This document shows, in pieces, positions 3,224 through 38,504 of a stretch of DNA of 38,504 nucleotides. The notes under the pieces are model-generated. The model had not been told where the DNA came from, searched no databases, and saw nothing but the letters and a program-made list of their open reading frames with translations. Each line of letters begins with the position of its first letter. Position 1 is the first letter of the stretch. This DNA is from a virus. The position numbers and the translations under genes were made by a program. The stretch spans positions 1 through 38,504 of IMG/VR virus record IMGVR_UViG_3300035670_000600. One strand, written 5' to 3'.

Positions 3224-5941
3224 ATGCCTCAACAAAATATCATACAACAGAAAGTTCAAGCAGAAGGTACAGCGCTCCCTGGTCAAGTTCGTTCTGTTCC
3301 AATACAATCTGGTATTGCTTCTGGCTTAGCAGCTTTATCGCAGGGCGTCGCGCAAGCAACCGAATATTATGATACCCAAAAATACAATGAAGATACATTA
3401 TGGGCCGGAAATAAAATGGCCGATGGGAATATGTATTGGGATAAAAAATTAACAGAGATGCAGAACGCCGCGCAGCCTGGTGCCGACGGTTTCGTGCAAT
3501 CTGTCGGGAACGAATTCAGGGCTTATCGTGAACAAACATTGCAGGAGGCAAAAGACAAGGGTCTAAATCCGAAAGCTATGGATAATCTCGTGATGTCTCT
3601 CAAAAAGCAAGAGGCGTCGCTCTTCGCACAATCTCTTAATTTTACAGATAGAGCCAAGAAGGAATATAACGTTTATCAAGCAGGACAAATGCTAGATAAA
3701 TCAATGAAGATCGCTCAAGATAATCCTGCTGGATCTGGACAGACTTATCTTGAAACTATGAAATATATAGATTCCTTAGCAGTTGATCCTATAGTGAAAA
3801 CTGGTTTGTTAGAGAAAGCTCAGAAAGATATAGCTTATGCTTCTGGATTGGGATTGGTTCAGCAGGCACCAGAAGCATCCGCAAAATTACTGAGAGAGTC
3901 AATTGTTCCATTAACTGGTAAAACGCAATTCGATCAGACCATGGAATTTATCTTTAAACGTGAAGGAGGATTGAACCCGAACGATGGAGGTGGCATATCT
4001 AATTATGGTATTAACTCTGTTGCTAATCCTGATGTTGATGTTAAAAATATAACCAAGCAGGGGGCAAAAGAGATCTATAAAGATAGATATTGGGATGCGA
4101 TCGGAGCGAGTCATCTTCCGCCAGGTGTAGCGTTGATGGCTATGGACGCTGCTGTGAATCAGGGTGTTCCGTATGCAAAAAAACTCTTAAAAGAATCTAA
4201 TGGTGATATTAATAAGATGGCTGAAATGAGAGCAGAGAAGTATGCCTCTCTTGTTTCTTCTAATCCTCAAAAATATGGAAAATATCAATCTGAGTGGAAC
4301 GATCGATTGCAAGAGGCTACACAACTTGCGACACAACTCGGAGGTTCTGGCACTGGCTTCTTAGACCCTCAGGCGATAGAGGTACAGCATGTTATTCAAA
4401 CCAACCGTCCGGTTATAGATGCTTTGTCGTTCGGAGATAGAATAAAATTATTAAATTATGCGGATAGGCAAATAGAACAACAGAAAGCTGAACAGAACGC
4501 TATGATTAAGCGTAAGTTCAACAATTTTGAATTAATGGCAAAGCAGGGCGCTGAGATTCCAGCGCAATCTGTTCCAACTGCGAATGAAATGATGTCGTAT
4601 TATGGCCCTATCGAGGGTCTTACCAAATACCAACAAGATGTACAGGGACTTGTGCAATTGAATGGGGATATGAGGGCTATGGCCTCTATGTCCATACAAG
4701 AAAGAGATGCTCTAATTAAGCAAAGGCAGCCAGTACCCGGTGATAATTTTATAGGACAATACGATCGTTACCAGACGTTGGTGTCCGCCAATGAGAAATT
4801 ATTGCAGGACATGAAGAAGGATTCTGCGGGATATGCTTTAGAGCATTCCGATCAAGTTAGGTCTTCTTATCAGCAAATGATTGGTGCCGTAGGAGCAGGT
4901 ATTAGTTCTACGCAAGAGGCTCGTATAGCCGCCCAAAATTATGCAGCCATATCAGAGCAGGAACAATTAAGATTAGGAATCACTACTCCTAAAATTTTAC
5001 CCGAGAATGTTAAGGCATATATGCTAACTCAAATGAATAGTGTTGCTCCAAATGGAGGAGAAACTGCTGCGAAGATGATGGCTGCTCAAGCAGACATTTG
5101 GGGTAGTTATTGGCCGAATGTTTATGCGGAGCTAGCTCCTAAGTTGCCGCCTGCTGCGCTTGTAGTTGGATCTGGGCTAAGGCCAGATGTTGCGGAGATC
5201 CTTGCGAGGACAGCGAATCTAAAGACTGAGGAACTGACAGATGGGCTTGAGAAGGGGGCAGTTGAGTCTATACGAACTGAAGTCAATAGCCTATCTTCAT
5301 CTGATTTTATGAAATCTATGATGTATTCCGTTGGTGGAGAGAAAACATATTCCGTCTTTCAAAATCAAATTGAGCGTCTCGCATATATCTATCATAAACG
5401 CGGGATGTCAGAATCGGAAGCCGCCGATACTGCATATAATGATATAATCGGATCTAAATATGAATTTGTTTATAATGATCGCCAGACGACGATACCATAT
5501 CGCGTTCCTCTTGATAGAGATGTTTCTAAGATTTCTAGCACGGCATCTGACTATCTAGCGAAGGGAGATCTATCGTCACTTGATATTGGTCGTGTGTTTG
5601 GCAAGACAGGTGAATTCGCGGACAAAAAAGCGTTTTACGAAAACATTAGAAATAATGGATATTGGGTTACATCTAATATGGAGGATGGCCTAAGCCTTTA
5701 TATCAATGGTCGTGTCGCTATGAACAAAGATGGGAGCGAGTTTAAGTTAACATGGGATCAATTAACGCCTGTTGTGCCAGAACCTCCGCAAATTATATAT
5801 AATCCAGATCGTGTTGATATGCTAAAGAAATCCATTGACGCATTCGAAGAGATGGAAGATAGTCCATATAGAAAGATGAAAAATTATAAAAAACAATTGA
5901 AAGACGCGTCAAAAGATCTAGAACTGATGGGTGGAGATTAA
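3224..5941 (+). CDS. Internal virion protein with GH108-type lysozyme domain
   Basis: This 905-residue virion protein is probably ejected with the DNA. Residues about 236-385 carry a glycoside hydrolase 108-like (ZliS-type) muramidase domain: FDQTMEFIFKREGG with the likely catalytic Glu at about 247, then GGGISNYGIN, then AKEIYKDRYWDAIGA and ALMAMDAAVNQG. The same pattern occurs in the phage's own endolysin at 12700. The rest is Q/A/E/K-rich and helical, as in T7 gp15/gp16 core proteins, which cut peptidoglycan locally during genome entry. T7 gp16 has an unrelated transglycosylase domain at its N-terminus, while here the domain lies inside the chain. The gene starts 3 bases after the gp14-like gene. 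Confidence 0.75.
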   Translation: MPQQNIIQQKVQAEGTALPGQVRSVPIQSGIASGLAALSQGVAQATEYYDTQKYNEDTLWAGNKMADGNMYWDKKLTEMQNAAQPGADGFVQSVGNEFRAYREQTLQEAKDKGLNPKAMDNLVMSLKKQEASLFAQSLNFTDRAKKEYNVYQAGQMLDKSMKIAQDNPAGSGQTYLETMKYIDSLAVDPIVKTGLLEKAQKDIAYASGLGLVQQAPEASAKLLRESIVPLTGKTQFDQTMEFIFKREGGLNPNDGGGISNYGINSVANPDVDVKNITKQGAKEIYKDRYWDAIGASHLPPGVALMAMDAAVNQGVPYAKKLLKESNGDINKMAEMRAEKYASLVSSNPQKYGKYQSEWNDRLQEATQLATQLGGSGTGFLDPQAIEVQHVIQTNRPVIDALSFGDRIKLLNYADRQIEQQKAEQNAMIKRKFNNFELMAKQGAEIPAQSVPTANEMMSYYGPIEGLTKYQQDVQGLVQLNGDMRAMASMSIQERDALIKQRQPVPGDNFIGQYDRYQTLVSANEKLLQDMKKDSAGYALEHSDQVRSSYQQMIGAVGAGISSTQEARIAAQNYAAISEQEQLRLGITTPKILPENVKAYMLTQMNSVAPNGGETAAKMMAAQADIWGSYWPNVYAELAPKLPPAALVVGSGLRPDVAEILARTANLKTEELTDGLEKGAVESIRTEVNSLSSSDFMKSMMYSVGGEKTYSVFQNQIERLAYIYHKRGMSESEAADTAYNDIIGSKYEFVYNDRQTTIPYRVPLDRDVSKISSTASDYLAKGDLSSLDIGRVFGKTGEFADKKAFYENIRNNGYWVTSNMEDGLSLYINGRVAMNKDGSEFKLTWDQLTPVVPEPPQIIYNPDRVDMLKKSIDAFEEMEDSPYRKMKNYKKQLKDASKDLELMGGD

Positions 5942-5942
5942 T

Positions 5943-7970
5943 ATGCCGATCGTTACACAAGGGCAAATTAGAAGGCAACCGTCCGATCTTTTTGAGGATA
6001 TCCCTAATCTTGGTACATGGGATTATATGACGACGCGATTTAAACAGCAGCAGGAAGACAATCCCTTATCTTTGTTTTATGATACTTACAAAACTTCCTC
6101 TATGTTTGTAGAGGGAGAAAAGCTTAGCAAGCAAAAAGCCGATGAATTGTCGAAGTCTTATGGTTTTAATATCCCTGTGCCAGATGATGGTATTTATAAA
6201 TCTTCTTATGATGCTTTAGTGGAGCGTAAGCAGACATATGAAAAGCTGCGTTATCTTGAGCAGAAAGGGACTAATGCGGCTTGGGGTTCTGGAGCACTTG
6301 CTAGTCTTGCGGGTGGATTTTTAGATCCTATTAATATCGGATTGGCCGCCATACCTATATTTGGTGAAGCCGCGATTGCAGCACGGACAACCGCTGCTAT
6401 TGGAAGCGGATTAGTGGCTAGAGCCACTGGGAGATTTGTCGCCGGAACATATGCGAATGCTGTTGGTACAGCTGCCTTAGAGCCGATAACATATGGATTG
6501 CATAAGAGTTTTGGGGATGACTATTCGGGATATGACAGCCTTCAAAATATTGCTTTTGGTGGTTTAGTGGGAGGCGGACTCCATGTTGTCGGCGGACTTG
6601 CGAAAGACATGGTTGGAAAATATAGGGGATATACAGCCTCTTCTCCCGAGCAGACAGCTGACGTGAAATGGTGGAATCCTAATCATGTTTCTCCTAGCCC
6701 AGACTATGAGACAGCATTTGGATCAGCAGCTATTGGGAATGATAGCGTTGGTAGGTTTTCTGACATTATTTCCGGTCGTTCGGAAGAGGGGCGTTGGGCT
6801 GCCATTGAATCTTCTCATATTTTAGATCCGCGGCACAAACCATCTATAGACAGTAAGATGGAAGGGGGATTAGACATCAATCGTTTATTAACATCGGATA
6901 CGCCAACTATGACAGCAGATGGTGGTGTATATGATGGATATAAACGGATTAAAGCGCTCAGAGAATTAGAAGGGCCTGATGGCTACGCGAAATATAAAGA
7001 AGAACTTGTTCGTATGGCCAAGGATTATGGCTTAGATCCTGAAGATATTTTGAAGATGGATTCTCCTGTGCTAGTAAGAGTATTAGATCGCTATGGAGAT
7101 GAGATCGATAATCCAAATATTATTAGATCAGGCGAGGCCAAGACATCAGAAGAGCCAGATTTTTATCATGGTGATATACAAACAATCAGAAGCGCCGAAA
7201 GAGAATATATAGACAGTCTCTTGAGTCGGATGCAAGCGTCTAAATGGAGAGATTCTGGTTTATATAAAATCGCACAAGCGATTTCTGAAGGGAAAGATTT
7301 ATCTGAGATATCCAATATATACAAATCCTTAGATCTTCCAGATGAAGTCGATAGATCTTTATCGGGGTTTGTATCCAATACGCTTGAGATGTTCCAGCGC
7401 ACAGATCTTAATGCGCGGCCTAGTGTGAGAAACATTTTTGAGGCGATTGATGATATGGTATTGAGGCCCGGGACAAATATTGTTTCAGATAATTTGCCAG
7501 AGGTTCTGCGCAACTTAGAGTCATTGCCATTACGCTATTCTCAGAGAAGCGCGCAATTTAGAGTGGATTCAGCAGCGCCTCACCAGAGATCTGCAGCTTT
7601 GCAGGTTGGAGTGGCACAATTTGCAAATGGGAACAAAATTGACGTTGATGATATGTTTAATAATCCTAACGATTTATCTGCAATGGCACAAAGGCAAACA
7701 AAGCCTGAAGCGCATTTGGCGTACGACGAGAGTATTCTTAAAACAGCAGATGATTTTTTGTCCGCTCAATCGAAAGGACCAGATACGTTATTGGGTCAAG
7801 CGGAGAACCTATTAGAAGAGACGCAAAAAATCTACGATGAAACCGTGGGACAATATCCGCAAACGGATGAGATGAAGGCAATATTTGCGCAATTAGATGA
7901 TGGCATAGACAGATCAAATCGTATCGCGAATGCACTGAAAGCGGCTGCGAATTGTTTAATGGGGGCTTAA
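5943..7970 (+). CDS. Internal virion protein (large, unknown subfamily)
   Basis: This is a 675-residue protein. I place the start at the ATG at 5943, because GGTGGAG ends 6 bases upstream. An in-frame GTG at 5931 would overlap the previous gene by 11 bases and has no ribosome site. Residues about 108-170 form a glycine/alanine-rich hydrophobic segment (ALASLAGGFLDPINIGLAAI) like those of ejected internal proteins, and GGLVGGGLHVVGGLA near 204-218 is a second. The remainder is acidic and helical. Position and size match the T7 gp15 slot. I do not recognise a catalytic domain. Confidence 0.6.
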   Translation: MPIVTQGQIRRQPSDLFEDIPNLGTWDYMTTRFKQQQEDNPLSLFYDTYKTSSMFVEGEKLSKQKADELSKSYGFNIPVPDDGIYKSSYDALVERKQTYEKLRYLEQKGTNAAWGSGALASLAGGFLDPINIGLAAIPIFGEAAIAARTTAAIGSGLVARATGRFVAGTYANAVGTAALEPITYGLHKSFGDDYSGYDSLQNIAFGGLVGGGLHVVGGLAKDMVGKYRGYTASSPEQTADVKWWNPNHVSPSPDYETAFGSAAIGNDSVGRFSDIISGRSEEGRWAAIESSHILDPRHKPSIDSKMEGGLDINRLLTSDTPTMTADGGVYDGYKRIKALRELEGPDGYAKYKEELVRMAKDYGLDPEDILKMDSPVLVRVLDRYGDEIDNPNIIRSGEAKTSEEPDFYHGDIQTIRSAEREYIDSLLSRMQASKWRDSGLYKIAQAISEGKDLSEISNIYKSLDLPDEVDRSLSGFVSNTLEMFQRTDLNARPSVRNIFEAIDDMVLRPGTNIVSDNLPEVLRNLESLPLRYSQRSAQFRVDSAAPHQRSAALQVGVAQFANGNKIDVDDMFNNPNDLSAMAQRQTKPEAHLAYDESILKTADDFLSAQSKGPDTLLGQAENLLEETQKIYDETVGQYPQTDEMKAIFAQLDDGIDRSNRIANALKAAANCLMGA

Positions 7971-12409: not shown

Positions 12410-12703
12410 ATGTCCAATGGCGATAGCGAACGTATGATACAATTTAGCAACAAGATTGATACGGGTCAGATTATTATGATTGTTGGCCTTGTCGTTTCTG
12501 CTTTTACCGCTTTCCAAACTTTTGACAAGCGTTTGGTAATCTTAGAAGAGAACATTAAATATCAATCTCAACGTGACAGGGATCAAGATCAAAAGATTTC
12601 TGAAACCGACAAGAACATAAAAGAAAGCTCTACCGATTTGAGAAGTAGGCTTGACATTATTAAAGAGCAGATTATTAAGGTTGAGAGGGATAGATTAAAA
12701 TGA
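12410..12703 (+). CDS. Small membrane-anchored coiled-coil protein, possible spanin or holin accessory
   Basis: This is a 97-residue protein with one hydrophobic segment near residues 19-37 (IIMIVGLVVSAFTAF), then a long charged coiled coil (KRLVILEENIKYQSQRDRD and onward) to the end. It overlaps the endolysin gene by the ATGA at 12700-12703, so it belongs to the lysis cassette. A single N-terminal anchor followed by a periplasm-length coiled coil is the plan of an inner-membrane spanin subunit, though XhlA-like lysis accessories are also similar. I see no separate lipoprotein partner in the cassette. Confidence 0.5.
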   Translation: MSNGDSERMIQFSNKIDTGQIIMIVGLVVSAFTAFQTFDKRLVILEENIKYQSQRDRDQDQKISETDKNIKESSTDLRSRLDIIKEQIIKVERDRLK

Positions 12704-13212
12704 TCATCACGCCGGAGATCCTGATTCAACGCTTGTTAGAGAATGAGGGTGGATATGTGAACAACCCTAAAGATCCTGGAGGAGAAACAAAATATGGGAT
12801 TTCCAAGAGATCTTATCCAGATTTAGATATTAAAAATCTAACCGTCGAGCATGCTATTGGTATATATTTTAATGAGTATTTAGATCATATACCGTATGCC
12901 CAAATGCATCCAGCGGTAGCGTGGCAATTGTTAGATTTTGGTGTCAATTCTGGGATGAGAACAGCGGTTAAAGCGCTTCAAAGATTCTTAGGCGTCAAGG
13001 CGGATGGCTTGATTGGTCCGAGGACATTATCAGCGATGAGTGAGCTAGATGTCTCTCTCGTAGTGATTGGTGTGTTGTCTGAGCGGATTAAATTATTGAT
13101 GTCTCTCAGCACATGGGATACATTTAAGAATGGCTGGTCTAATAGGATTACAAAATGTTGGATCGAGTCCGTGAGTGACCTTGAGTGCGAATGGGAGAGT
13201 ATTGGTGCGTGA
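12700..13212 (+). CDS. Endolysin: GH108 muramidase with PG-binding domain
   Basis: This is a 170-residue soluble muramidase. Residues 6-20 hold ILIQRLLENEGGYVN with the family's catalytic Glu in 'ENEGG', then DPGGETKYGISK near 25-36, the classic GH108 N-terminal pattern. AVAWQLLDFGVNSGMRTA near 68-85 and ALQRFLGVKADGLIGPRTL near 89-107 form the C-terminal PG_binding_3-type region. No signal peptide is present, so release through a holin is expected. It overlaps both neighbours (ATGA upstream, GTGA downstream), which shows translational coupling in the lysis cassette. Confidence 0.9.
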   Translation: MIITPEILIQRLLENEGGYVNNPKDPGGETKYGISKRSYPDLDIKNLTVEHAIGIYFNEYLDHIPYAQMHPAVAWQLLDFGVNSGMRTAVKALQRFLGVKADGLIGPRTLSAMSELDVSLVVIGVLSERIKLLMSLSTWDTFKNGWSNRITKCWIESVSDLECEWESIGA

Positions 13213-13469
13213 ATCATCATAAATACATAATGTCGGTTGGCATACTGGTTTTGATGGGTTTTTTCTTCATAGTCAGTTTGGTATTATCTGGATATGCTAA
13301 AGGAGACCCAACGCTTATAGGTGCTGTTGTTGGATATGTGAGCGCTAAAGCGGAGCAGGTGGTCGGTTATTATTTCGGATCAAGCAGCGGAAGCGCCAGA
13401 AAGACAGAGATGCTTTTGGCGGACAGGAATATCGATGTAAATCAACAAAAAAATAACTTGACCCAATGA
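13209..13469 (+). CDS. Putative holin-like membrane protein
   Basis: This is an 86-residue protein. I chose the GTG at 13209, which overlaps the endolysin stop as GTGA and has GGGAG upstream at 13193-13197. An ATG at 13230 is the alternative. It has a strong transmembrane segment (SVGILVLMGFFFIVSLVL) and a second weaker one ending in EQVVGYYFGSSSGSARKTE, followed by a polar tail. The glycine/serine motif 'YYFGSSSGSARKTE' recurs in phage membrane proteins near endolysins. Holin function is inferred from topology and position. The promoter of the following cassette lies over its 3' end. Confidence 0.6.
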   Translation: MNHHKYIMSVGILVLMGFFFIVSLVLSGYAKGDPTLIGAVVGYVSAKAEQVVGYYFGSSSGSARKTEMLLADRNIDVNQQKNNLTQ

Positions 13470-13485
13470 GTTGGCATGCTATAAT
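13458..13485 (+). promoter_or_regulatory. Strong sigma70-type promoter for the 13.5-15.0 kb cassette
   Basis: TTGACC (13458-13463) and TATAAT (13480-13485) are separated by 16 bases, with transcription expected to start near 13492. It overlaps the last codons of the holin-like gene and faces rightward into the small gene, the degenerate ATPase gene and thymidylate kinase. It is among the best consensus matches I found in the window and would uncouple these three genes from the late operon. Confidence 0.75.
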
Positions 13486-13495
13486 ATATGCACCA

Positions 13496-13509
13496 GCACA
13501 ATGTTGTGC
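13496..13509. promoter_or_regulatory. Palindromic operator-like site
   Basis: GCACAATGTTGTGC is an inverted repeat with 6-base arms around a 2-base centre. It begins 10 bases after the -10 box, over or just after the transcription start. The arms are too close for an RNA hairpin, so a dimeric repressor site is the more natural reading. No bound protein can be named; the phage's MucR-like regulator or a host factor are candidates. Confidence 0.5.
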
Positions 13510-13528
13510 CGCTTGTTAGAGGTGTTGT

Positions 13529-13738
13529 ATGTTAACAGACGAAATATTTGAGCATCGTGTTCATGAAGTATCGCTCATTAAGAATATCAGCTTCTATGGG
13601 ATGACGATAGAAAATACAGATGAGTCAATAGATAATTTGTGCTCATTTAATGGAATGTTTCCAAAAGATATATTCAAAGATCCATCCGACAAATTTGATA
13701 GGTACGTTCATTTCGTTCGAAAGCTGCGCGGGATATAA
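13529..13738 (+). CDS. Small acidic protein of unknown function
   Basis: This is a 69-residue protein led by an AGAGGTG ribosome site at 13518-13524. It is the first gene after the strong promoter at 13458. It has no membrane segment or cysteine motif I recognise. It is acidic in the N-terminal half (MLTDEIFEHRVHEVSLI) and has a short basic end (YVHFVRKLRGI). It sits 5 bases before the degenerate ATPase gene, so the two are probably co-translated and may act together. Confidence 0.6.
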   Translation: MLTDEIFEHRVHEVSLIKNISFYGMTIENTDESIDNLCSFNGMFPKDIFKDPSDKFDRYVHFVRKLRGI

Positions 13739-13743
13739 TCCAT

Positions 13744-14412
13744 ATGGATAGAAGCTATACAATCAAAATGTTACTACAGCCAGATGTAGAGAGCACTGAG
13801 ATTAGTTTTGTTCCAGCTGGGAAACCCAAGCGTAAAGCTATACAGCAATCTAATCAGACATTTGTTGTGAAAGATAAGGAATTTGGCAGACTGCGTCTTC
13901 TTAGATTTGTCGTTGTGTATGCTGGAGGAACATGCGAAAACCTTATCAGGCAATGGCATGAACACCAGAAAACCAAAGACCATATTCGCATATTGAACAC
14001 GAATGAAGATCTCCATCGCATCAGGCTGAGCGGAAACATATTAGAGGATGGAAAAACATTTTATGTATTAGATACAACACAATTCTGTGTTCATCCTATT
14101 AAAATGCGTGAAGTCTTCCGTCGTTTTTTAATTGCAGAGGGCAACCCGCAACTTCTCTTGTTTACCAACGACACAGCTTATATGTCTAAATATTTCGATT
14201 ATATGCTTAGTCCGGATCAAATATATATGCTGGATCCAAACGGCCGCGGGGATGGGCAGTTTACAGCGGTGGGTCTTGCAGAGTTTAAGGGTTTTGATAG
14301 GAAGCGCTCAAAACGAGACCTTATCTTTGAGTATCTGATTGGTAGATATGGCGGAATGCCGTTTGATACAGAGCCCTTAGATTCTTCCTCAGCGAATTAC
14401 GACTGGAGATAA
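13744..14412 (+). CDS. pATP-A: compact degenerate COG1106/AAA_15-like ATPase
   Basis: This is a 222-residue protein that reads as a shortened ABC-type defence ATPase. Residues 19-32 (EISFVPAGKPKRKA) fit the family's first strands. RFVVVYAGGTCENLIRQW (54-71) fits the Walker A strand and helix, but GxxxxGKS is absent. KTFYVLDTTQFCVHP (104-118) fits Walker B plus the D-loop 'HP', keeping Asp110 but not the following Glu. QLLLFTNDTAYMS (136-148) fits the H-loop strand, with Asn142 where the switch His is expected. FEYLIGRYGGMPF (195-207) fits the C-terminal 'YLQGRYGAIPF' motif. The middle domain with the ABC signature is missing. Full-length relatives (AbiL- and AriA-type defence ATPases) have 350-450 residues. 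I infer a protein that folds and binds partners but does not hydrolyse ATP. Confidence 0.65.
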   Translation: MDRSYTIKMLLQPDVESTEISFVPAGKPKRKAIQQSNQTFVVKDKEFGRLRLLRFVVVYAGGTCENLIRQWHEHQKTKDHIRILNTNEDLHRIRLSGNILEDGKTFYVLDTTQFCVHPIKMREVFRRFLIAEGNPQLLLFTNDTAYMSKYFDYMLSPDQIYMLDPNGRGDGQFTAVGLAEFKGFDRKRSKRDLIFEYLIGRYGGMPFDTEPLDSSSANYDWR

Positions 14413-14414
14413 TG

Positions 14415-15026
14415 ATGCCGCTTATTACATTCGAAGGGATCGATGGATCCGGTAAATCTACTCAGGCGGCCCTCTTAGTCAAAGCATTGCGAGAAATCGG
14501 GAAGTTTGCGTATCTAACCAGAGAGCCTGGGGGGACTGAACTCGCTGAGTCGATTAGAACTCTTTTAATGGACAATCCTGATATGCCTGCTGAGGTCCAG
14601 TCTCTTTTGTTCACGGCGGCGAGAAGAGACCATCTAGAAAATCTGATTGTTCCCATGCTTGAGTCAGGTTCTTATGTTGTGTGTGATAGATATATCGATT
14701 CAGGCGAGGCGTATCAAACAGAAACCACAGAGAAACATAAGTACCATATTATGGAGATCTTGGCTGAGAATATGCCGTATAACGCTATTCGCCCAGATCT
14801 CACCATCTATTTAGACATTCCTATTAATGAGGCCCAGAAGCGTCTTATGGACCGTCGTAATGATACGCTGTATGCCAGAACTTTATGCGAAAAGATGCAT
14901 GACATACAAGAGGCGTACAGTAGAATCGTGGACAAAGACATGAAAAGATTCCGAAAAATCAATGCAATGGCTGATGAAACAACGGTGCATCAACAGGTCT
15001 TTGCTTGCGTCTGTCAGATTCTTTAA
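14415..15026 (+). CDS. tmk: Thymidylate kinase
   Basis: This 203-residue enzyme transfers phosphate from ATP to dTMP. The P-loop is FEGIDGSGKSTQ (6-17), followed by LTREPGGTELAESIR and RYIDSGEAYQ, matching the substrate-binding DRY and 'EPGGT' motifs. LTIYLDIP is the buried strand and RRNDTLYAR forms the lid. I prefer the ATG at 14415, since GGAG at 14405-14408 lies 6 bases ahead; the ATG at 14412 overlaps the previous stop. The typical 'DRYxxSSxAYQG' is DRYIDSGEAYQT here. The 3' end overlaps the convergent gene by 68 bases. With the dCTP deaminase at 15328 it supports dTTP supply. Confidence 0.9.
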   Translation: MPLITFEGIDGSGKSTQAALLVKALREIGKFAYLTREPGGTELAESIRTLLMDNPDMPAEVQSLLFTAARRDHLENLIVPMLESGSYVVCDRYIDSGEAYQTETTEKHKYHIMEILAENMPYNAIRPDLTIYLDIPINEAQKRLMDRRNDTLYARTLCEKMHDIQEAYSRIVDKDMKRFRKINAMADETTVHQQVFACVCQIL

Positions 15027-15315
15027 TATCTGGATCTTGATCCGATAGAAGAGCGCGAGCTGAGGCCGCCTTGAATCTTGCTAATTTGTCTAATCTTGGC
15101 CGAGCTGAGACACTGAAGCACGACAAGAAATCGCTTGTAAGAAGATAGCTATAGAATTCCTCAAGCTGTTTGGGCGTCATTTTTTTGGTCATCGTCTTGC
15201 TCATGATCAGATCGTATACGGCATCAATATGATGGTATATCTCGTGGAATACCAAACGTCCAAGCGCCATCTTTAATCTCTCTTCATTCTTCATTGTGAT
15301 GTCTTCCATTTTCAT
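14959..15315 (-). CDS. Unknown protein at the end of the recombination operon
   Basis: This is a 118-residue, mainly helical and charged protein. Three ATG codons are clustered at 15321, 15315 and 15309. GGAG abuts the first directly, so the second (6 bases away) is the likely start. It contains the segment FHEIYHHIDAVYDLI near 23-37 and a basic C-terminus. It is the last gene of the leftward exonuclease-RecT-deaminase operon and its end runs 68 bases into the thymidylate kinase gene on the other strand. I do not recognise the family. Confidence 0.65.
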   Translation of the reverse strand: MKMEDITMKNEERLKMALGRLVFHEIYHHIDAVYDLIMSKTMTKKMTPKQLEEFYSYLLTSDFLSCFSVSARPRLDKLARFKAASARALLSDQDPDIKESDRRKQRPVDAPLFHQPLH

Positions 15316-15327
15316 AGCCATCTCCTT

Positions 15328-16386
15328 TCACGCAAAATATTTAGAAAGCCGCAACCCTTGCCACTGGTAATGTGAGCATAAAAAAGGCCCATATTGTTTG
15401 TCTGGTATAGAAAACATAGGCATATAATGCAGATAAGCGATCAATTGGTTGTCTCTTACAGAAAATGGGAGATCTCTGCATCGTACTTCCAAAACAGCTT
15501 TTGCATCATATTCATTGGATTCTGAATAACCAAATCCAGGATCAAAGAATCCAGCATAATGTACCCTAAATTCTCCGATAGATGGATCTGATGATATAAG
15601 TTCAGCGCACCAATCTGGTGGTATGGAAATACTATTACTAGATCTAAACAGATAAAATTCGTTTGGATCCATCTTGAAGTACTTATGCCCAACATCTATA
15701 TACGTATGCCAATATGGATCGATATCATGTTTTGTATTTGGCGTGACATCTACCGATTGTTTGGTTTTTTTAGATTGATACGCGATCGCCCTATCTGAAC
15801 GATGCGCATCACTTTTCAGGCTAATATATATAGGGAACATTATGTCGTGAGGCAGCCTAATGTTTACATAATTCTCTTGCTGCTGTGTTGTCTCAAATCG
15901 TATCTGCGTGAGTATCGATCCCTTCCTTACAACGATTGGGAAAGATCCAACAGATATTTCGACATACAATTTTCCTTTATACCCCTCTGGGATCTTGTCA
16001 AATGTCATCCCATAGTCTGTGACTATGCGCGTTAATACATCTAGCCTCCCAATAGAGCTTTTTGTATTGCACGTGGCACTGATATAATTAGGCAAAGATA
16101 GGCTTTCGTTAATCTCTGCCAGATAGACCTGGTTGGGATGTAGCGTTGCCCCTTGAGCGAGAGCGATCTCATATGGAGCGAATTCTCTGACTTCACTCAG
16201 GATGTCAGCGTTTTTACCCGGCAAAAAACTAGATGAAATCGCCCATACCCTATCTCCCAAACTTAGGTCGAGAGAGGCTGGTTGTATTTGATGCTCTTTG
16301 ATAGAGCTGTTCGTTGTGATATGACCGTCACATATCATTCTTGAGATATGTTGAGATGGCAATATATATTTCTGATTACTCTTCAT
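15328..16386 (-). CDS. dcd: Two-domain dCTP deaminase (2'-deoxycytidine 5'-triphosphate deaminase)
   Basis: This is a 352-residue enzyme, about twice the size of the E. coli trimeric Dcd, built as two dUTPase-fold halves. It deaminates dCTP to dUTP. The N-terminal half has HQIQPASLDLSLGDRVWAI (31-49), then CNTKSSIGRLDV with the family's 'SSxGRLDV' active-site motif, then GKLYVEIS with the expected Glu. The second half repeats the fold: GEFRVHYAGFFDPGFGYSE and AVLEVRCRDLPFSVRDNQ. This long form is known from Alphaproteobacteria and their phages. GGAGG precedes the start, and the gene overlaps the recT 3' end by 11 bases. Confidence 0.85.
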   Translation of the reverse strand: MKSNQKYILPSQHISRMICDGHITTNSSIKEHQIQPASLDLSLGDRVWAISSSFLPGKNADILSEVREFAPYEIALAQGATLHPNQVYLAEINESLSLPNYISATCNTKSSIGRLDVLTRIVTDYGMTFDKIPEGYKGKLYVEISVGSFPIVVRKGSILTQIRFETTQQQENYVNIRLPHDIMFPIYISLKSDAHRSDRAIAYQSKKTKQSVDVTPNTKHDIDPYWHTYIDVGHKYFKMDPNEFYLFRSSNSISIPPDWCAELISSDPSIGEFRVHYAGFFDPGFGYSESNEYDAKAVLEVRCRDLPFSVRDNQLIAYLHYMPMFSIPDKQYGPFLCSHYQWQGLRLSKYFA

Positions 16387-17176
16387 TGTCTACCTCCACA
16401 TTAGTTTTGTCTTCTTCTTCGTTGTTAGCTCTTTGGACTTCTTCTGACGATTTTATTAGTCTTAATAGTTTTGCAGGTCCTGCATGACGCTCGATGCCGT
16501 TATCTTTTCTTTCCTCTAATCCTGTGATTGGATTTCCATTGTCGTAATCATCCATATATTCTCTATCTCTATAAACTTGCGGTAGCATCTTACACATTCT
16601 TTTGACAGTTGCTTTTTTCCTCATTTCATCAGCAAAAGCGCCAGACCAAGGAGATCTCTCTGACGCAGACATTTTTCTTATATTCTGCATCTCTTCTTCT
16701 GTCATTATTTCTATATACATTCCTCCGTCAAACAAAAGACCTTGACAAAATGTTAATATTGGAGCTCCCTTATCCCCAATCAGTATAGGTTCATATAAGA
16801 TATGCTCACCTTCATCGTCTAGCCAGTAGGAGAATTTGTCATTCTCGTAAACAACGGACGCTTTAATGGATTTAAGATTGCCAGACTGATAGGCTAATTT
16901 CATTAGACCTTGATACATAGGCTCATAACATACTTTCCCCTTTCTAACAATCAATGCCGCTTCGAACCCATCTGGGATTAATCCATCTTCTGCGGCATCC
17001 ATACAAGCGCTCAATAAGCTTTCTCTGCTGAATGACAGAAGGTTCGGATTTTTCCTAACGGCGCTAAAAACGATACGTATAAATCTGTCGACATCAATAT
17101 GCCTTGGAAGAACTTTTTTAAATTCGCTAGATTGTTTTTCCAATATATGCTTAAACTCTATAATATTATTAGACAT
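16376..17176 (-). CDS. recT: RecT-family single-strand annealing protein
   Basis: This is a 266-residue protein. I start it at the ATG at 17176, 6 bases after AGGAA; the longer frame extends 24 codons into the exonuclease gene. RecT signatures are visible: RIVFSAVRKNPNLLSFSRESLL (near 37-58), ACMDAAEDGLIPDG, then YEPMYQGLMKLAYQSGNLKS and WSGAFADEMRKKATVKRMCK. It anneals complementary single strands made by the paired exonuclease. The tail is acidic and low in complexity (NNEEEDKTNVEVDNEE), a feature of the RecT C-terminus or SSB contact. It sits between exonuclease and deaminase in one operon. Confidence 0.9.
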   Translation of the reverse strand: MSNNIIEFKHILEKQSSEFKKVLPRHIDVDRFIRIVFSAVRKNPNLLSFSRESLLSACMDAAEDGLIPDGFEAALIVRKGKVCYEPMYQGLMKLAYQSGNLKSIKASVVYENDKFSYWLDDEGEHILYEPILIGDKGAPILTFCQGLLFDGGMYIEIMTEEEMQNIRKMSASERSPWSGAFADEMRKKATVKRMCKMLPQVYRDREYMDDYDNGNPITGLEERKDNGIERHAGPAKLLRLIKSSEEVQRANNEEEDKTNVEVDNEE

Positions 17177-17189
17177 ATGATATTCCTTT

Positions 17190-18140
17190 CTAGATAGAAG
17201 TCTTCTTCTCAACAACCCGAATCCCACGATGTGGTTTCCTAGCGCCATAACGCTGTCCGATCATTTCAGGTGTGATCAGTGTTCCTTCGTTCCCGCTTAC
17301 ATCAGAGATTGTAACTATTATATCTCCGCAATCAATTTTCTTAAAACTGTTTGACTCCAATAATATCTTGCATTTCAGAGCATTGCACTCTTCTTCTAGA
17401 ACGCCTATCTTATTTTTATTCTCTCTGTATTTGACAATGTTTTGATACAGCTTGTCTTCTCTCGATGGGAATAGGGTATCATTTTTGAGGTCTGTTTTTA
17501 TGTTATCTAATATAAGAGCGCTGTCTCTTTCATAGTTAGGATCTGGCTGTATGTTTCTCTCTACGCTATCCCAAAATTCTTTTACCTTCTGTATGATCGC
17601 TTGATGCACCGATTCAATTGCGTTCCTCTCTATAACATAATGCTTGTTCCCTCCGACGAGAACGCCAATATACGCTTTCTTAAGTCCGGATACCATTAAT
17701 TGATGTTGCACTTGTAGCTCGATATGTGTCGGCGCTTCATACTCATTGTCTCCTATCGCGGTCCATCCTTTTTTAAATGACATCTCTGATACATTCTTGA
17801 TCTCTAATATAGCTTCTTCTTTTCCCGTAATAAAATAATCATAAGAAGATCCAATCCTTAATGTGCTGTCTCTATCATACCACAGCGCGGAGACAATAGT
17901 CCAGCCGCGTTCTCTTGCTATCTCCTTAGCGATGGCTTCCTCTAGAGCTGTTCCCCATTGCATATAATTCGACGGAACTCGATCGTCCTGTTTATAGCCA
18001 GCTTTCTCTAGCCATAATTGATAGATTGTTTTATATGGATTCTGCCCGAACAAACAGGATACATCTGTGCTCGTTATATCGTTCTTTCTCAACTCCAAGC
18101 GCTTCTCTAATGATAACGCCTGTATTCTTTCTGCTATCAT
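17190..18140 (-). CDS. YqaJ/lambda-exonuclease-type recombination nuclease
   Basis: This is a 316-residue protein. The start is the ATG at 18140, preceded by GGAAGGAG; the open frame continues 43 codons upstream through the promoter and those codons are not coding. YqaJ-type motifs: NDITSTDVSCLFGQNPYKT near 18-36, WGTALEEAIAKEIA (conserved Glu), SSYDYFITGKEEAILEIKNV (Asp and ExK of the PD-(D/E)xK core), and HIELQVQHQLMVSG (the QxxHQ helix). It chews one strand of double-stranded DNA to make the substrate for RecT directly downstream. This pair is a standard phage recombination module. Confidence 0.88.
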   Translation of the reverse strand: MIAERIQALSLEKRLELRKNDITSTDVSCLFGQNPYKTIYQLWLEKAGYKQDDRVPSNYMQWGTALEEAIAKEIARERGWTIVSALWYDRDSTLRIGSSYDYFITGKEEAILEIKNVSEMSFKKGWTAIGDNEYEAPTHIELQVQHQLMVSGLKKAYIGVLVGGNKHYVIERNAIESVHQAIIQKVKEFWDSVERNIQPDPNYERDSALILDNIKTDLKNDTLFPSREDKLYQNIVKYRENKNKIGVLEEECNALKCKILLESNSFKKIDCGDIIVTISDVSGNEGTLITPEMIGQRYGARKPHRGIRVVEKKTSI

Positions 18141-18415
18141 ATATATCTCCTTCCGATGAACATGGGACATAATGAATCTTAGCACGAACAATTTGCATGT
18201 GCAAGAAAAAAGTTTGATTGACAGAATCGTTTTTGCATGATATGTTTGCATTGCGCGTGAAACGAGCACGTATTATTGTGCGGCGCAACATCATGGAGAT
18301 ATGTTATGATATATAAGTTTGCATACCGTGCGTTAGAGTTGTTTAGCGCGTTCTCGCTCTTTTTCGTTTTTTATATACTTTGGTGTATCACTCCTGCATA
18401 AAGGGAGATTATATT
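18141..18415. promoter_or_regulatory. Divergent control region between recombination and replication operons
   Basis: This stretch of 275 bases separates the leftward exonuclease operon from the rightward primase operon. It holds the leftward promoter at 18176-18204 and several AGCACG words (18181-18186 and inside GAAACGAGCACG near 18258-18269). The rightward start has GGGAG at 18403-18407. A TATACT near 18373 is a possible rightward -10 box, but no convincing -35 box goes with it. No gene is seen inside. Confidence 0.6.
18176..18204 (-). promoter_or_regulatory. Promoter of the exonuclease-recT-dcd operon
   Basis: On the minus strand, TTGCAC (18204-18199) and TAAGAT (18181-18176) are separated by 17 bases. 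Transcription would start near 18169 and give a short leader before the exonuclease ribosome site. Confidence 0.55.
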
Positions 18416-24430: not shown

Positions 24431-24532
24431 AATTCCTCCTTACCGCATCAAGAGACGCGATAAGGATATAATATCACCAAAAATATAACACAACGTAAAA
24501 GCGTAAACTGTTTTTTATCTATGATTTAAATA

Positions 24533-24832
24533 TCATTCTACAGCGAGTGGAATCTCTCCCTGTATTTTGCTGGGCGTTTTTTTCTCTCCGATGTCTGTAT
24601 CTTTCATAATTTTTGGGAATGGAATATCAATCTTTTTCTTATTAGACAGAACCTTAATCCTCAACTCAACCATCTGACAAACAACATCTTTTAGCGCACA
24701 CTCTATCTGATGGATCGTGTCAGTAACGTTATAATGACAATCGGATTGTCTTAAAGCTTGCACATCATCTCTCAGCTTCTCTAAATCCTCTTTCCGTTCA
24801 ATCAGATCGTATATATCTCCAGGGTTACACAT
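24533..24832 (-). CDS. Unknown 99-residue coiled-coil protein
   Basis: This is a 99-residue, strongly helical protein with heptad-like spacing (YDLIERKEDLEKLRDDVQAL near 8-27, then CALKDVVCQMVELRIKVL) and a basic/acidic tail. AAAGGAG lies 6 bases before the ATG at 24832. It is followed by a 102-base gap with no gene. The function is unknown; the plan resembles small structural or adaptor helices. Confidence 0.65.
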   Translation of the reverse strand: MCNPGDIYDLIERKEDLEKLRDDVQALRQSDCHYNVTDTIHQIECALKDVVCQMVELRIKVLSNKKKIDIPFPKIMKDTDIGEKKTPSKIQGEIPLAVE

Positions 24833-24936
24833 AAAGTTCTCCTTTCGTAGTAAATGCTCGAAGTGAGCCGCTCTATCATATCATATCAGCAGACAAATCA
24901 GCGCTGCCAAAGACACCTAGCATTGTTTGTAATGCT

Positions 24937-25029
24937 CTAAGAGCTTTCTGGATCTTTCCCTAACAATCTTAAACAAATATTTACCATCTCCCATTGCATC
25001 CAATATTTTACAGAAAAACTCATTAACAT
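24937..25029 (-). CDS. 30-residue peptide
   Basis: This is a short frame with AAGGAG 6 bases before the ATG at 25029, encoding MLMSFSVKYWMQWEMVNICL and then RLLGKDPESS. It lies between the 451-residue gene and the 99-residue gene on the same strand. The hydrophobic middle, with a polar end, could associate with membranes. Apart from this frame, 24833-25078 holds nothing I can identify. Confidence 0.35.
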   Translation of the reverse strand: MLMSFSVKYWMQWEMVNICLRLLGKDPESS

Positions 25030-29138: not shown

Positions 29139-29203
29139 TTCTCCCTGAGGCAACTTATTGAATGTTGTAATACTCCGCCAACATTCCATCGGTGATTTTT
29201 TAC

Positions 29204-34557: not shown

Positions 34558-35496
34558 ATGTCCGGAGGCGACTCAAACTACGATCCAGAACTCTTTAAAA
34601 TTAATTATACAGACGCGTTAACCTCAGATCCGCAGAGAGTACAATCAGTTTTTATGCCGGCCTGTACAATGCACCCAGCCCCTCCTGGCGGTGCGGCTCA
34701 ATATGTTTTTATCAAAAGGTTCCTTAAGTCCGATACGGTGAAAGAGGTCGTGTCTCAGTCTCAGCCTATCGAGAGAAGCCCGATGAACAATCTGGTGCGC
34801 TCTATGAAGCCCAGCTGGGGTTACGATGAGGTGGAGATCAACCTCACTATTACCAGGAATTATGGTCCAGGCAACATCGACATGGATGTTGTGAACGATC
34901 TAAAAGCTAAGATCCAGCGTTATAAGGACGTTAAGTTTTTAGAGGCGTTTTATGGGAACATCGAAGAAGGTAACCTATATTTCTCGACAACAAATCAAAT
35001 CCCATTTAGCACAAGCAACACAGTTGCGGTAAATTATGGATCTAGTGATCCGATCGGCATGAGCGCCATGAAGCTATATCGCTCTAAAGAACTCTTAGGG
35101 CGTAATGAGGTTGGGGCCCATGAAGAAATCTTCGTAGCCGTTACGACGCAGCAATTGAATCAGATCTTAATGTCTCCAGATTTTAAAAACATGAACTATT
35201 ACCGCGACCAATCTAAACTCTCTGGATTTGGAACGCCTATTAGTTATATGGGCTGGACATTCTTGCCATATGAAGATCTCCCAACCTATATGGATGGAGC
35301 CACAAAAATCGTAAAATGTCCATATTGGGTTAAACGTGGTATGGCGGCATGTGAGTGGGTTCCTTTAGATGTCCAAATCAAAGACCTCACAGAAGTTGCT
35401 GGTCGCGCCAAGGGGCTCTATGTGGAGAGCTTGCTTGGGTTCGGCAGAACAAACGAAGTGTTTTGTGGAGAAATACTCTGCAAGGTTGAGGGTTAG
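34558..35496 (+). CDS. Major capsid protein
   Basis: This is a 312-residue capsid protein of the T7/podovirus plan, placed right after the scaffold and preceded by a long leader and AGGAG. It has GGAAQYVFIKRFLKSDTVKE near 42-61, RSMKPSWGYDEVEINLTITR near 81-100 and EEIFVAVTTQQLNQILMSPD near 190-209, matching capsid 'E-loop' and peripheral domain segments. It ends with a coiled LLGFGRTNEVFCGEILCKVE. It is assigned by position, length and this pattern. Confidence 0.82.
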   Translation: MSGGDSNYDPELFKINYTDALTSDPQRVQSVFMPACTMHPAPPGGAAQYVFIKRFLKSDTVKEVVSQSQPIERSPMNNLVRSMKPSWGYDEVEINLTITRNYGPGNIDMDVVNDLKAKIQRYKDVKFLEAFYGNIEEGNLYFSTTNQIPFSTSNTVAVNYGSSDPIGMSAMKLYRSKELLGRNEVGAHEEIFVAVTTQQLNQILMSPDFKNMNYYRDQSKLSGFGTPISYMGWTFLPYEDLPTYMDGATKIVKCPYWVKRGMAACEWVPLDVQIKDLTEVAGRAKGLYVESLLGFGRTNEVFCGEILCKVEG

Positions 35497-35525: not shown

Positions 35526-36047
35526 ATGCCTGTAGTTATTCGAAATAGCGACACAATCCAACAGTTTGTGGACAAAAAAGCAGACTCTCGCATTGTCGGT
35601 CGCCCTGTCCTTGGCGTTCCATCTGGCGAGGCTAAGTTTGAGGCGACTGACGCGGTGGGTAGTGTGGTATTGTTGGTCCCATTGCCAGTCAGTTGTATCG
35701 TCAAGGAGTTAATGGTAACAACTATGACCGGATTTACTGGGACTGGTACAGTTGATTTTGGATTAGCTGAGTTTAAGCTCAACCAAACTAGTCCCTTGGG
35801 TACCGTATTAGATGCGGGTTTTTTTAACACTGGCTTCAATATTGTCACTAGCCTTTCTCGCTCTAATGTGTTGTCCCAGTCTGTCTATACGGCGGCCAAA
35901 GATGGTAAACCGTTATGGAAGTTGCTGTACCCAACGCTTCATTACGCAGCAGAAGTCCCTGTGACTCACGTCGCCGTGATCGCTACCCTCACAACAACCG
36001 CGTCCGCTTCTGTTTCTTTTAATATGATAGCAGACTTTTTCAACTAG
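35526..36047 (+). CDS. Tandem paralogue 1, possible head decoration protein
   Basis: This is a 173-residue beta-rich protein, the first of three diverged copies downstream of the capsid gene. The N-terminus MPVVIRNSDTIQQFVDKKAD is shared in style with the other two (MPVVVRMSKTFESITKAS and MPVSIIKSDLIENIEKG). The hallmark is KDGKPLWKLLYPTLHYAAE near 122-140. The middle is a beta-sandwich-like run of V, T, G and F. The function is inferred from position between capsid and tail genes. Confidence 0.65.
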   Translation: MPVVIRNSDTIQQFVDKKADSRIVGRPVLGVPSGEAKFEATDAVGSVVLLVPLPVSCIVKELMVTTMTGFTGTGTVDFGLAEFKLNQTSPLGTVLDAGFFNTGFNIVTSLSRSNVLSQSVYTAAKDGKPLWKLLYPTLHYAAEVPVTHVAVIATLTTTASASVSFNMIADFFN

Positions 36048-36059
36048 CAGGAGGTTACC

Positions 36060-36290
36060 ATGTCTATACGTCGCTATTCTATGAAGTCTGGATACAAATA
36101 TAACGAGATTGTTGACAGTGATGGGACGGCGACGTTTCCGGCCGGAGATCCTATTCAGTTGTTTGTCGACTACGGCTCTCTTTCGACGGTGAGCGCCGCA
36201 GGAAGAAGTTATTATCTCAATATGGTGATAGATGCCCTAAGTGAGATAGAGAGTTATTTAGAGACTTTTGAGGCTCAGAAGAAGATATAA
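36060..36290 (+). CDS. Small unknown head-region protein
   Basis: This is a 76-residue protein with AGGAGG before the ATG at 36060. It begins MSIRRYSMKSGYKYNEIVDS and ends with an acidic helix (ALSEIESYLETFEAQKKI). It is inserted between paralogues 1 and 2, with a gap of 12 bases before it and 11 after. It could be a short adaptor. Confidence 0.6.
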   Translation: MSIRRYSMKSGYKYNEIVDSDGTATFPAGDPIQLFVDYGSLSTVSAAGRSYYLNMVIDALSEIESYLETFEAQKKI

Positions 36291-36301
36291 GGATCTCCAA
36301 T

Positions 36302-36814
36302 ATGCCAGTTGTCGTTCGTATGAGTAAAACGTTTGAGAGTATCACAAAAGCGAGCGTAACGAACAGTGACGCTCAGATGTTTTATGAGGTATGGGGTGGT
36401 CCCACTGGCCTTTCGTATTTCATTCCAACGGATTCTCCTGGGTCTTTGTGCCCTATGTTTTATGTGCCGGTGACTTGCATTTTGAAGAGATTCAGAGTGA
36501 CGGTTTTCTCTGGCGGCATAAGCCCATGCTCTGTGCAAATGTTGATTTATCACATGCCCAAAGACGGTGGAGAATATATAGGAGATATATTTTTAAATGG
36601 AACATATTCTTTCGCGCAAGATCGTGTAAACATTATTTTTAATTCTATATGGGGAGTAGCCAAAGACAATCTACCCCTATGGAAAGCGTTGTGGCCCACC
36701 CATCAACATCCCAACGAATGCGGTGTTTCGCATGTTCAGCTCACATACAAACTAACCAACAATAACAATGTTGGGCAAGGCTCTGTTATAGCATATCCAG
36801 AGTATTATGTTTAA
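36302..36814 (+). CDS. Tandem paralogue 2, possible head decoration protein
   Basis: This is a 170-residue protein, second of the three copies. It keeps the MPVVVRMS start and KDNLPLWKALWPTHQHPNEC near 121-140, aligned to 'KDGKPLWKLLYP' in copy 1. AAGGAT is its ribosome site. Sequence outside these anchors has drifted far, so the copies probably have different roles or positions. Confidence 0.65.
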   Translation: MPVVVRMSKTFESITKASVTNSDAQMFYEVWGGPTGLSYFIPTDSPGSLCPMFYVPVTCILKRFRVTVFSGGISPCSVQMLIYHMPKDGGEYIGDIFLNGTYSFAQDRVNIIFNSIWGVAKDNLPLWKALWPTHQHPNECGVSHVQLTYKLTNNNNVGQGSVIAYPEYYV

Positions 36815-36831
36815 TCGGGGGGGTATAAACA

Positions 36832-37341
36832 GTGCCTGTTTCTATAATTAAATCAGATCTTATTGAAAATATTGAGAAGGGAGTCTTGGACAACAAACAT
36901 CCATATGGGCATAGCCCAGCAGGATACACGTGCTCCACAATAACATTAGAGAGCACACATTCGGCCGGATCTCCAATATATATGTTTCAGGTTCCATTAA
37001 CAATATCTTTATTTAATCTTTATGTGAGCAATTCACCAATGGGACCCGGGTCCATTAAGATTGGACTTTGCGCGCCTTATAGAGATGGGTATGCCCCCAT
37101 TCATGATAGTTTTTTCACTGCGAGCTTCTCTCTTTCGACGCTCAACGTGCGCGTTAGTGCAATTAGTTTTATTGGCTACCCAATGCAAAAAGATGGTCAA
37201 GCATTGTGGAGAATCTTATATCCATCAGCTAAATCCATTTCAGAATGTCCCTACCAAAAGGCTGTTGTGTATGCAACTATTATAAACTCTCCCAATGGGC
37301 AGGGTGGCTTAGGTATGCATTTGCTAGGGTTCCATTCGTAA
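36832..37341 (+). CDS. Tandem paralogue 3, possible head decoration protein
   Basis: This is a 169-residue protein with a GTG start at 36832, following a G-rich ribosome site. It keeps MPVSIIKSDLIENIE at the start and KDGQALWRILYPSAKSISEC near 123-142. It is the most diverged in its middle, with more Pro, Ser and Gly. Confidence 0.65.
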   Translation: MPVSIIKSDLIENIEKGVLDNKHPYGHSPAGYTCSTITLESTHSAGSPIYMFQVPLTISLFNLYVSNSPMGPGSIKIGLCAPYRDGYAPIHDSFFTASFSLSTLNVRVSAISFIGYPMQKDGQALWRILYPSAKSISECPYQKAVVYATIINSPNGQGGLGMHLLGFHS

Positions 37342-37364: not shown

Positions 37365-37949
37365 ATGTTTTCACAGGTCGACATATGCAATTTAGCACTC
37401 ACATGGTTGGGTGCTAATCGCATCTCTTCTTTTTCTGATCCGCAGGCTTCTGATTGTGCTTTTCTTTTTGATAAGGTGCGCGTTGCGGAACTTTCCAAGC
37501 AATTCTGGGCATTTGCATCCACTAGAGCAACATTGCCAGCTCTAGCTGCGAAGCCATCCTGGGGGTATGCCAATCAATTTGAATTGCCGGTAGATTGTTT
37601 AACGATCATACAAATCAATGACTATTCTAATAGATATGGCGCGCCATTATATCAAGAGAAAAACGATGCAGCTTATATGATAGAAGGTCGTCAAATTCTA
37701 ACTAATTTTGCTGCTCCTCTAAAAATACGATATGTTGTTGATGTTAAAGATCCTGGATTATTCCATCCTTTATTTGCTCGTGTTATGGCAGCAGCTATCG
37801 CTAGAGACTTATGTTATCGTTTAAAGCAAGATCGTGCTGGAGTGGATGATTGGTATAATTCGGAATTAAGCGATGCGCGCAAACAAAACGCTATTATTCG
37901 TGCTCCTGTTAATATGTTGGAGAGTAGCTATGTTATGGCGAGGCTCTGA
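37365..37949 (+). CDS. Tail tubular protein A-like
   Basis: This is a 194-residue adaptor that joins portal and nozzle. The N-terminal SQVDICNLALTWLGANRISS near 3-22, and the helical repeats rich in Ala and Arg near the C-terminus (FARVMAAAIARDLCYRLKQD), match T7 gp11-type proteins. It overlaps the next start as TGATG, so tail tubular A and B are coupled. Confidence 0.85.
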   Translation: MFSQVDICNLALTWLGANRISSFSDPQASDCAFLFDKVRVAELSKQFWAFASTRATLPALAAKPSWGYANQFELPVDCLTIIQINDYSNRYGAPLYQEKNDAAYMIEGRQILTNFAAPLKIRYVVDVKDPGLFHPLFARVMAAAIARDLCYRLKQDRAGVDDWYNSELSDARKQNAIIRAPVNMLESSYVMARL

Positions 37950-38504
37950 TGCTCAAGACCATACAATCGTTAACATCCTTTAATGCGGGAGAATTATCTC
38001 CCCTTTTAGAAGGTCGTCCTGATCTCGCCAAATATGCGAATGGTTTGCGCCATACGGAAAATTTTAAATTTGCTGTGCAGGGTGCAGCTATCAAGAGGAC
38101 AGGAACAGAATTTGTCTCAGAGGTCAAAAACTCGAATGATCGCGTGTGGCTTGTTCCGTTTGTTGCGTCCGCATCACAAGCATATGTCTTAGAATTTGGA
38201 CATCTCTATATTAGGTTTTATACAAATCGTGGACAATTGCTATCTGGAGGATCTCCCTATGAGGTAATCACCCCATATACATCCTCTATGCTTACTAATG
38301 CCGACGGCACATTTGGATTGAGCGTGAAGCAGATTAACGATATCATGTTTATCGCCTGCGGATCTAGGACAATGCCGATTGGCAAATTAAAAAGATTAGC
38401 GCCAACCAATTGGACATTCTCGTATGTGGAAACCAAAAATGGCCCTTTTAAGACAATCAACACAACAGACGCTTACGTAACACCAACAGACGTAACTGGC
38501 AACA
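37949..38504 (+). CDS. Tail tubular protein B-like protein, 5' part
   Basis: This is the N-terminal part of the tail nozzle protein; the frame continues at base 1. It opens MLKTIQSLTSFNAGELSPLL, the 'f.aGelSprl.gr.D' start of this family, followed by EGRPDLAKYANGLRHTENFK and AVQGAAIKRTGTEFVSEV (the 'p.G...RrpGt.fv' pattern). These signatures are the main evidence for the identity of the whole protein. It starts on the stop codon of tail tubular A. Confidence 0.88.
   Translation, partial: MLKTIQSLTSFNAGELSPLLEGRPDLAKYANGLRHTENFKFAVQGAAIKRTGTEFVSEVKNSNDRVWLVPFVASASQAYVLEFGHLYIRFYTNRGQLLSGGSPYEVITPYTSSMLTNADGTFGLSVKQINDIMFIACGSRTMPIGKLKRLAPTNWTFSYVETKNGPFKTINTTDAYVTPTDVTGN
38378..38504. repeat. 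Terminal direct repeat, right copy
   Basis: This is identical to bases 1-127; see the left copy. Confidence 0.95.

Follow-up and report, generated by a model that had tools for sequence, protein, structure and literature searches.

What do three related genes of a short-tailed phage encode between its capsid and tail genes, and why would all three be kept? The question is raised by an uncultured podovirus whose record, analysed here over its full 38,504 bases, is called the window. Positions 1-127 of the window are identical to positions 38378-38504. Such overlapping ends are what circular assemblies typically show, so the record is probably a whole genome, assembled as a circle, with a unit of ~38,377 bases (about 38.4 kb).

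The gene block and the kinship of its three copies

The head and tail module of the window is of the BPP-1/HTVC010P kind. A terminase gene at 29192 is followed by a portal gene at 31319 (PF12236, E 3e-87), by a likely scaffold or protease gene at 33409, and by the gene for a major capsid protein of the Phage_capsid_2 type (34558..35496, + strand; Pfam PF19821, E 2.5e-18; phrog_3437 major head protein, E 1.4e-14), which is the surface that cement proteins would bind. The first of the three related genes, copy 1 (35526..36047, + strand, 173 aa), starts 29 bases past the end of the capsid gene. A gene for 76 aa with its own AGGAGG site comes next (36060..36290, + strand), and downstream of it lie copy 2 (36302..36814, + strand, 170 aa) and copy 3 (36832..37341, + strand, 169 aa, with a GTG start). 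The block is bounded downstream by the gene for the tail adaptor (37365..37949, + strand; phrog_394 tail protein, E 3.4e-38), beyond which a second tail protein gene is split over the ends of the record. All three copies are intact reading frames with plausible ribosome-binding sites.

An earlier note on this DNA had described three tandem paralogues of 173, 170, and 169 residues between capsid and tail genes. The reading frames and both flanking genes are as it described them; the arrangement is not strictly tandem, because the 76-aa gene splits copy 1 from copy 2. A six-frame search of the window finds the motif that it had picked out, K-D-[GN]-x-x-L-W-[KR]-x-L-[YW]-P, exactly three times, and none of the other reading frames checked (16,510 in all) contains it. 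That the products share little else was too strong a statement, since the three align over their full length with 27-32% identity. In local alignments, copies 1 and 2 score 170 (z 28.4; identity 48/149), copies 1 and 3 score 140 (z 22.9; 43/161), and copies 2 and 3 score 117 (z 17.8; 46/154), against means of 29-30 in 500 shuffles, with a standard deviation of about 4.9 and highest scores of 49-55. When copy 1 was used as a query against its own record, it found copy 2 (E 8e-17) and copy 3 (E 5e-12) and nothing beyond these two. The three genes are full-length paralogues.

Elsewhere in the window, two separate matches to the phrog_315 endolysin family were seen, one (3224-5941) within a virion-module protein of 905 aa, the other (12700-13212) free-standing. 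The region 14412-18269 carries a thymidylate kinase gene on the + strand and then a reverse-strand block for a two-domain dCTP deaminase, RecT, and a YqaJ-type exonuclease.

Relation to capsid cement proteins

No PHROGs family matches any of the three copies with E <=10, and the only Pfam match, DUF5736 for copy 3, lies below the cut-off (E 0.074). The alignment of the three window proteins alone (A1) has no match among the PDB sequences either. With a 50-member profile of the family, a relation to solved capsid cement proteins becomes detectable: the top three PDB matches are the cements of cyanophage Pam1 (7eel_H, E 2.4e-7), Ralstonia phage GP4 (8h89_J, E 1.2e-4), and Helicobacter phage KHP30 (7dn2, E 0.0041), and the fourth, at E 0.1, is unrelated. 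A narrower profile of 31 members, restricted to closer relatives, gives E 0.0057 for the Pam1 cement and 0.48 for that of GP4; since this narrow profile is weak and the window proteins alone reach nothing, the sequence link to the solved cements depends on the distant members of the family. The window copies differ in how readily they are recognised. A family profile built without the window finds copy 1 with 60.6 bits, the best of the three, and copy 3 with 31.8 bits (E 5.7e-8), and copy 2 is not among its reported matches.

The predicted structures point in the same direction. The AlphaFold model of copy 1 (pLDDT 87.1, pTM 0.84) is mostly beta, as is the weaker model of copy 2 (pLDDT 78.4, pTM 0.70). 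For copy 1, the best Foldseek match, and the sole one under 0.001, is the GP4 cement (8h89_J, E 3.6e-6), and the VIA comparison gives Z scores of 11.4 for GP4 (141 residues), 10.7 for Pam1 (112 residues), 8.7 for KHP30, and 8.4 for KHP40, with a tail protein (8gtc_T) next at 8.0 and the others at 6.8 or less. For copy 2, the best Foldseek match is the Pam1 cement (7eel_H, E 3.5e-4), and VIA ranks Pam1 (Z 11.4), GP4 (10.4), and KHP40 (9.4) ahead of unrelated virus jelly rolls that follow close behind (Aichi virus capsid proteins, Z 8.8). Thus, copies 1 and 2 are predicted to adopt the Ig-like or jelly-roll beta-sandwich of the solved cements, and copy 3 joins them by sequence. The cement-type fold is also seen in viral proteins whose names refer to collagen repeats, and, because these and the tail protein have the same fold, the fold alone is no proof that copies 2 and 3 sit on the head.

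The solved proteins resemble the window copies to different degrees. The GP4 cement, gp1 (8h89), is like them in fold, in size, and in its match to the family profile, with an identity of only 10-14%. The Pam1 cement (7eel), which is the best profile match, shares the fold but has 140 residues and is missing residues in the segment that bears the LW motif of the window family. The cements of Helicobacter phages KHP30 and KHP40 (7dn2 and 7dou) share the fold as well (Z 8.4-9.4), but are shorter (124-126 aa) and match weakly in sequence.

Two other origins were considered. An origin from fibres or spikes, which the earlier note had offered, was set aside because PHROGs and Pfam gave no fibre or collagen-like family match, and the models are compact beta-sandwiches like those of known cement proteins. 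Membership in the Bbp16 family was rejected as well: the gene for Bbp16 of Bordetella phage BPP-1 likewise comes after that for the major head protein, but the three window proteins have no PF21190 match at E up to 10, whereas the proteins of BPP-1, BcepC6B, and BUCT708 at the corresponding place do match PF21190. Bbp16 was not among the rows shown in the structure comparisons of either model, which says nothing about the Bbp16 fold.

Gene position bears on the identification too. In the window and in its relatives, copy 1 or its counterpart adjoins the major capsid gene; copies 2 and 3 of the window come one gene later. The position directly after the capsid gene is the family's place in HTVC010P-like podoviruses, where HTVC010P (two records), HTVC034P, HTVC035P, Lederberg, MW202898, and MW202485 each have one such gene, annotated only as a hypothetical protein. 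The HTVC010P protein gp10 (6763-7260 of locus L009) and the MW202898 protein at 24452-24949 belong to the same sequence family as the window proteins and have the same post-capsid place, with one copy per record as opposed to three; pelagiphage "hypothetical" proteins like gp10 are, by this comparison, members of the cement family. The assignment of copy 1 is based on its model, its fold match, and its position as in relatives; that of copy 2 on its model, its fold match, and its paralogy with copy 1; and that of copy 3 on paralogy and the family profile. Since solved cements are matched both by the family profile and by the two models, the three proteins are most likely capsid cement, not fibres.

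Copy number and duplication history

The relatives were collected through their portal protein. Direct queries of viral contigs with copy 1, the A1 alignment, or the capsid protein gave no confirmed relative. Phage records searched by tblastn with the capsid protein and copy 1 gave none either, nor did genome contigs searched with A1, and nothing was confirmed by scanning with the tail adaptor. By portal protein, the nearest relative (L090, 61%) is a contig of 6,835 bases that stops before the capsid region, and it has no match to the family profile A6. Among 9,576 reading frames of the relatives' loci, a profile of the three copies alone finds 31 at E <=0.01, the three copies included, and the iterated family profile finds 65.

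In 48 of 55 loci with both capsid and tail genes, one copy lies between the two; five have none by this count, one (L133) has two, and the window has three. In L026, which is counted among the five, a cement copy overlaps the end of the capsid reading frame. An enlarged set of 73 loci gives one copy in 64, none in seven, two in one, and three in one. A further set of 148 loci, to which loci were added for having a cement gene, so that absence is not informative, gives one copy in 138, none in seven, two in two, and three in one; some of these loci overlap, and the two with two copies (L133 and L172) are the same contig. When each distinct set of cement sequences is counted once, 117/120 have one copy, 2/120 have two, and 1/120, the window only, has three. 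Searches of 26 chosen whole records with A6, a narrower profile, gave a single copy in 19, two in the record of L133, and three in that of the window. The other five had no match, and four of them (L025, L028, L053, and L083) proved to have a copy when a wider profile was used. A single cement copy is therefore the rule, and three retained paralogues are unusual in this sample.

The earlier note's suggestion of a gene triplication with strong drift is borne out by the trees, which took only strong family members. The three window copies form one clade both in a tree of 38 members out of 61 distinct ones (support 100/99) and in a tree of 48 representatives of 134 (100/98), in which the bootstrap had not settled. 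Of the three, copy 1 has the shortest branch; those of copies 2 and 3 are longer. Long-branch attraction was checked as a cause of this clade by dropping each copy in turn from a tree with 28 other rows chosen by hand; each time, the two copies left still group (SH-aLRT 94, 97, and 99). The copies are thus likely to stem from an old duplication within this lineage. Its age and the order of its steps are uncertain, because, with copy 2 left out, copies 1 and 3 each have their highest identity to an outside row (L142 at 26% and L148 at 24%, respectively), and because the branches are long and are flagged by the tree program.

Other loci with more than one cement gene appear to have different histories. 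The two adjacent copies of L133 are sisters (100/99). In L146 (13175-15360), which is on a contig titled as a Deltaproteobacteria MAG, a capsid gene, a cement gene, a small gene, and a second cement gene follow one another in the order of the start of the window's block, and the two cement copies fall in different clades, as if the second had been acquired. On the evidence of the window clade, the L133 sisters, and the split clades of L146, multiple cement genes probably arose three times, by two routes.

The small gene has a history of its own. The 76-aa gene of the window is a diverged member of a small-gene family whose members come after the cement gene in relatives (phmmer match to L011, 8913-9137, E 1.6e-4). 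The L011 protein is one of 44 reading frames, mostly small genes at the same place, that an iterated profile finds; this profile does not reach the 76-aa gene itself. In L022, the small family forms the N-terminal part of a 298-aa protein (13419-14315; phrog_10356, virion structural), beside which a free copy of 63 aa is found (14334-14525). The fusion to a virion structural protein suggests that the small domain may be an anchor on the head or neck. The slot between the cement gene and the tail adaptor holds matches to tail-fibre or collagen-like proteins in L033 (5125-5640), L065 (9162-9698), and L022 (12440-13417); such proteins in some relatives make it look like a hotspot for added genes.

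A possible division of labour on the head

What could three such proteins do on one head? We consider it probable that they are jelly-roll (Ig-like) capsid cement paralogues of the Pam1/GP4/KHP30 type, forming trimers at three-fold positions of the head surface, with divided labour as the likeliest arrangement. To the paralogy, the single clade, the fold of copies 1 and 2, and the gene position, all computed here, the solved relatives would add the trimers, the outside location, and the stabilising role. Each protein would join trimers on the head exterior at three-fold sites between capsomers, and these trimers would lock neighbouring capsid subunits together. Copy 1, beside the capsid gene, would keep the ancestral place and role, and copies 2 and 3, derived from old duplications, would have diverged to serve other capsid sites. 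The three would be kept for a division of labour on non-equivalent three-fold sites, whether as three homotrimers that each prefer certain sites or as trimers of mixed composition. The distinct positions on one capsid that the earlier note had proposed would be compatible with a cement identity.

From its genome size only, the head is taken to be T=7, and the classes of three-fold site to be shared out would be icosahedral, hexon-hexon, and hexon-penton. T=7 heads have three such classes, and the decoration protein Dec of phage L, a trimeric clamp at three-fold sites, is reported to discriminate among them (PMC6449081); Dec has an OB-fold, however, and is a different kind of protein from the jelly rolls of the window. 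The agreement between three copies and three T=7 site classes would make an attractive match, but two-copy cases exist. That one symmetric clamp has been split into three, each for one class of T=7 three-fold site (or into one heterotrimer), is offered as a tentative and somewhat doubtful suggestion. In the T=9 head of GP4, 540 cement monomers form 180 trimers on quasi-three-fold sites, and one cement gene product, a homotrimer, is described (PMC9698820); a single cement protein serves all the quasi-equivalent sites there.

Another possibility, which we regard as unlikely, is that copy 1 alone is the shell cement and that copies 2 and 3 took another job, as an anchor of head fibres, as a decoration of the vertex or neck, or in the binding of host or environmental glycans. 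It would account for their branches being longer than that of copy 1 and for their presence in the slot where L022, L033, and L065 have collagen- or fibre-like proteins, and folds similar to theirs are found in a tail protein and in proteins named for collagen repeats. However, both copies retain the domain at full length, with the P and W positions of the family, the model of copy 2 is still best matched by cement proteins, and the alignment contains no added binding or fibre region.

Divided labour could also take the form of an obligate heterotrimer with one of each copy per clamp, a form that overlaps the preferred reading and for which the herpesvirus triplex is a loose parallel. Three genes for the three subunits of a clamp, all kept as full-length diverged frames, would suit it; the homotrimeric cement of the solved relative GP4, the two rather than three copies of the other multi-copy loci, and the small gene that parts copy 1 from copies 2 and 3 make it improbable. 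A redundant or decaying state of copies 2 and 3, in which only copy 1 matters, is very improbable in spite of their strong divergence and of a leucine in copy 2 at a glycine column conserved in at least 90% of the family alignment, since three intact frames with plausible ribosome-binding sites are kept in a small genome and the divergence is so deep that dead copies should have been lost.

In the reading preferred here, of cement paralogues that divide their labour, the unusual part is the copy number; fold, gene place, and likely role are already known. Searches of open-access literature listed no paralogous, duplicated, or heterotrimeric cement proteins that could be recognised from titles or the starts of abstracts. 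A likely function can now be put on a family whose only listing in pelagiphages and related phages is "hypothetical protein". A lineage with three diverged copies is also a natural test of whether separate proteins can serve capsid sites that differ only by symmetry, and, if each copy does prove to have its own class of site, a tailed phage would have solved quasi-equivalence by genetic means.
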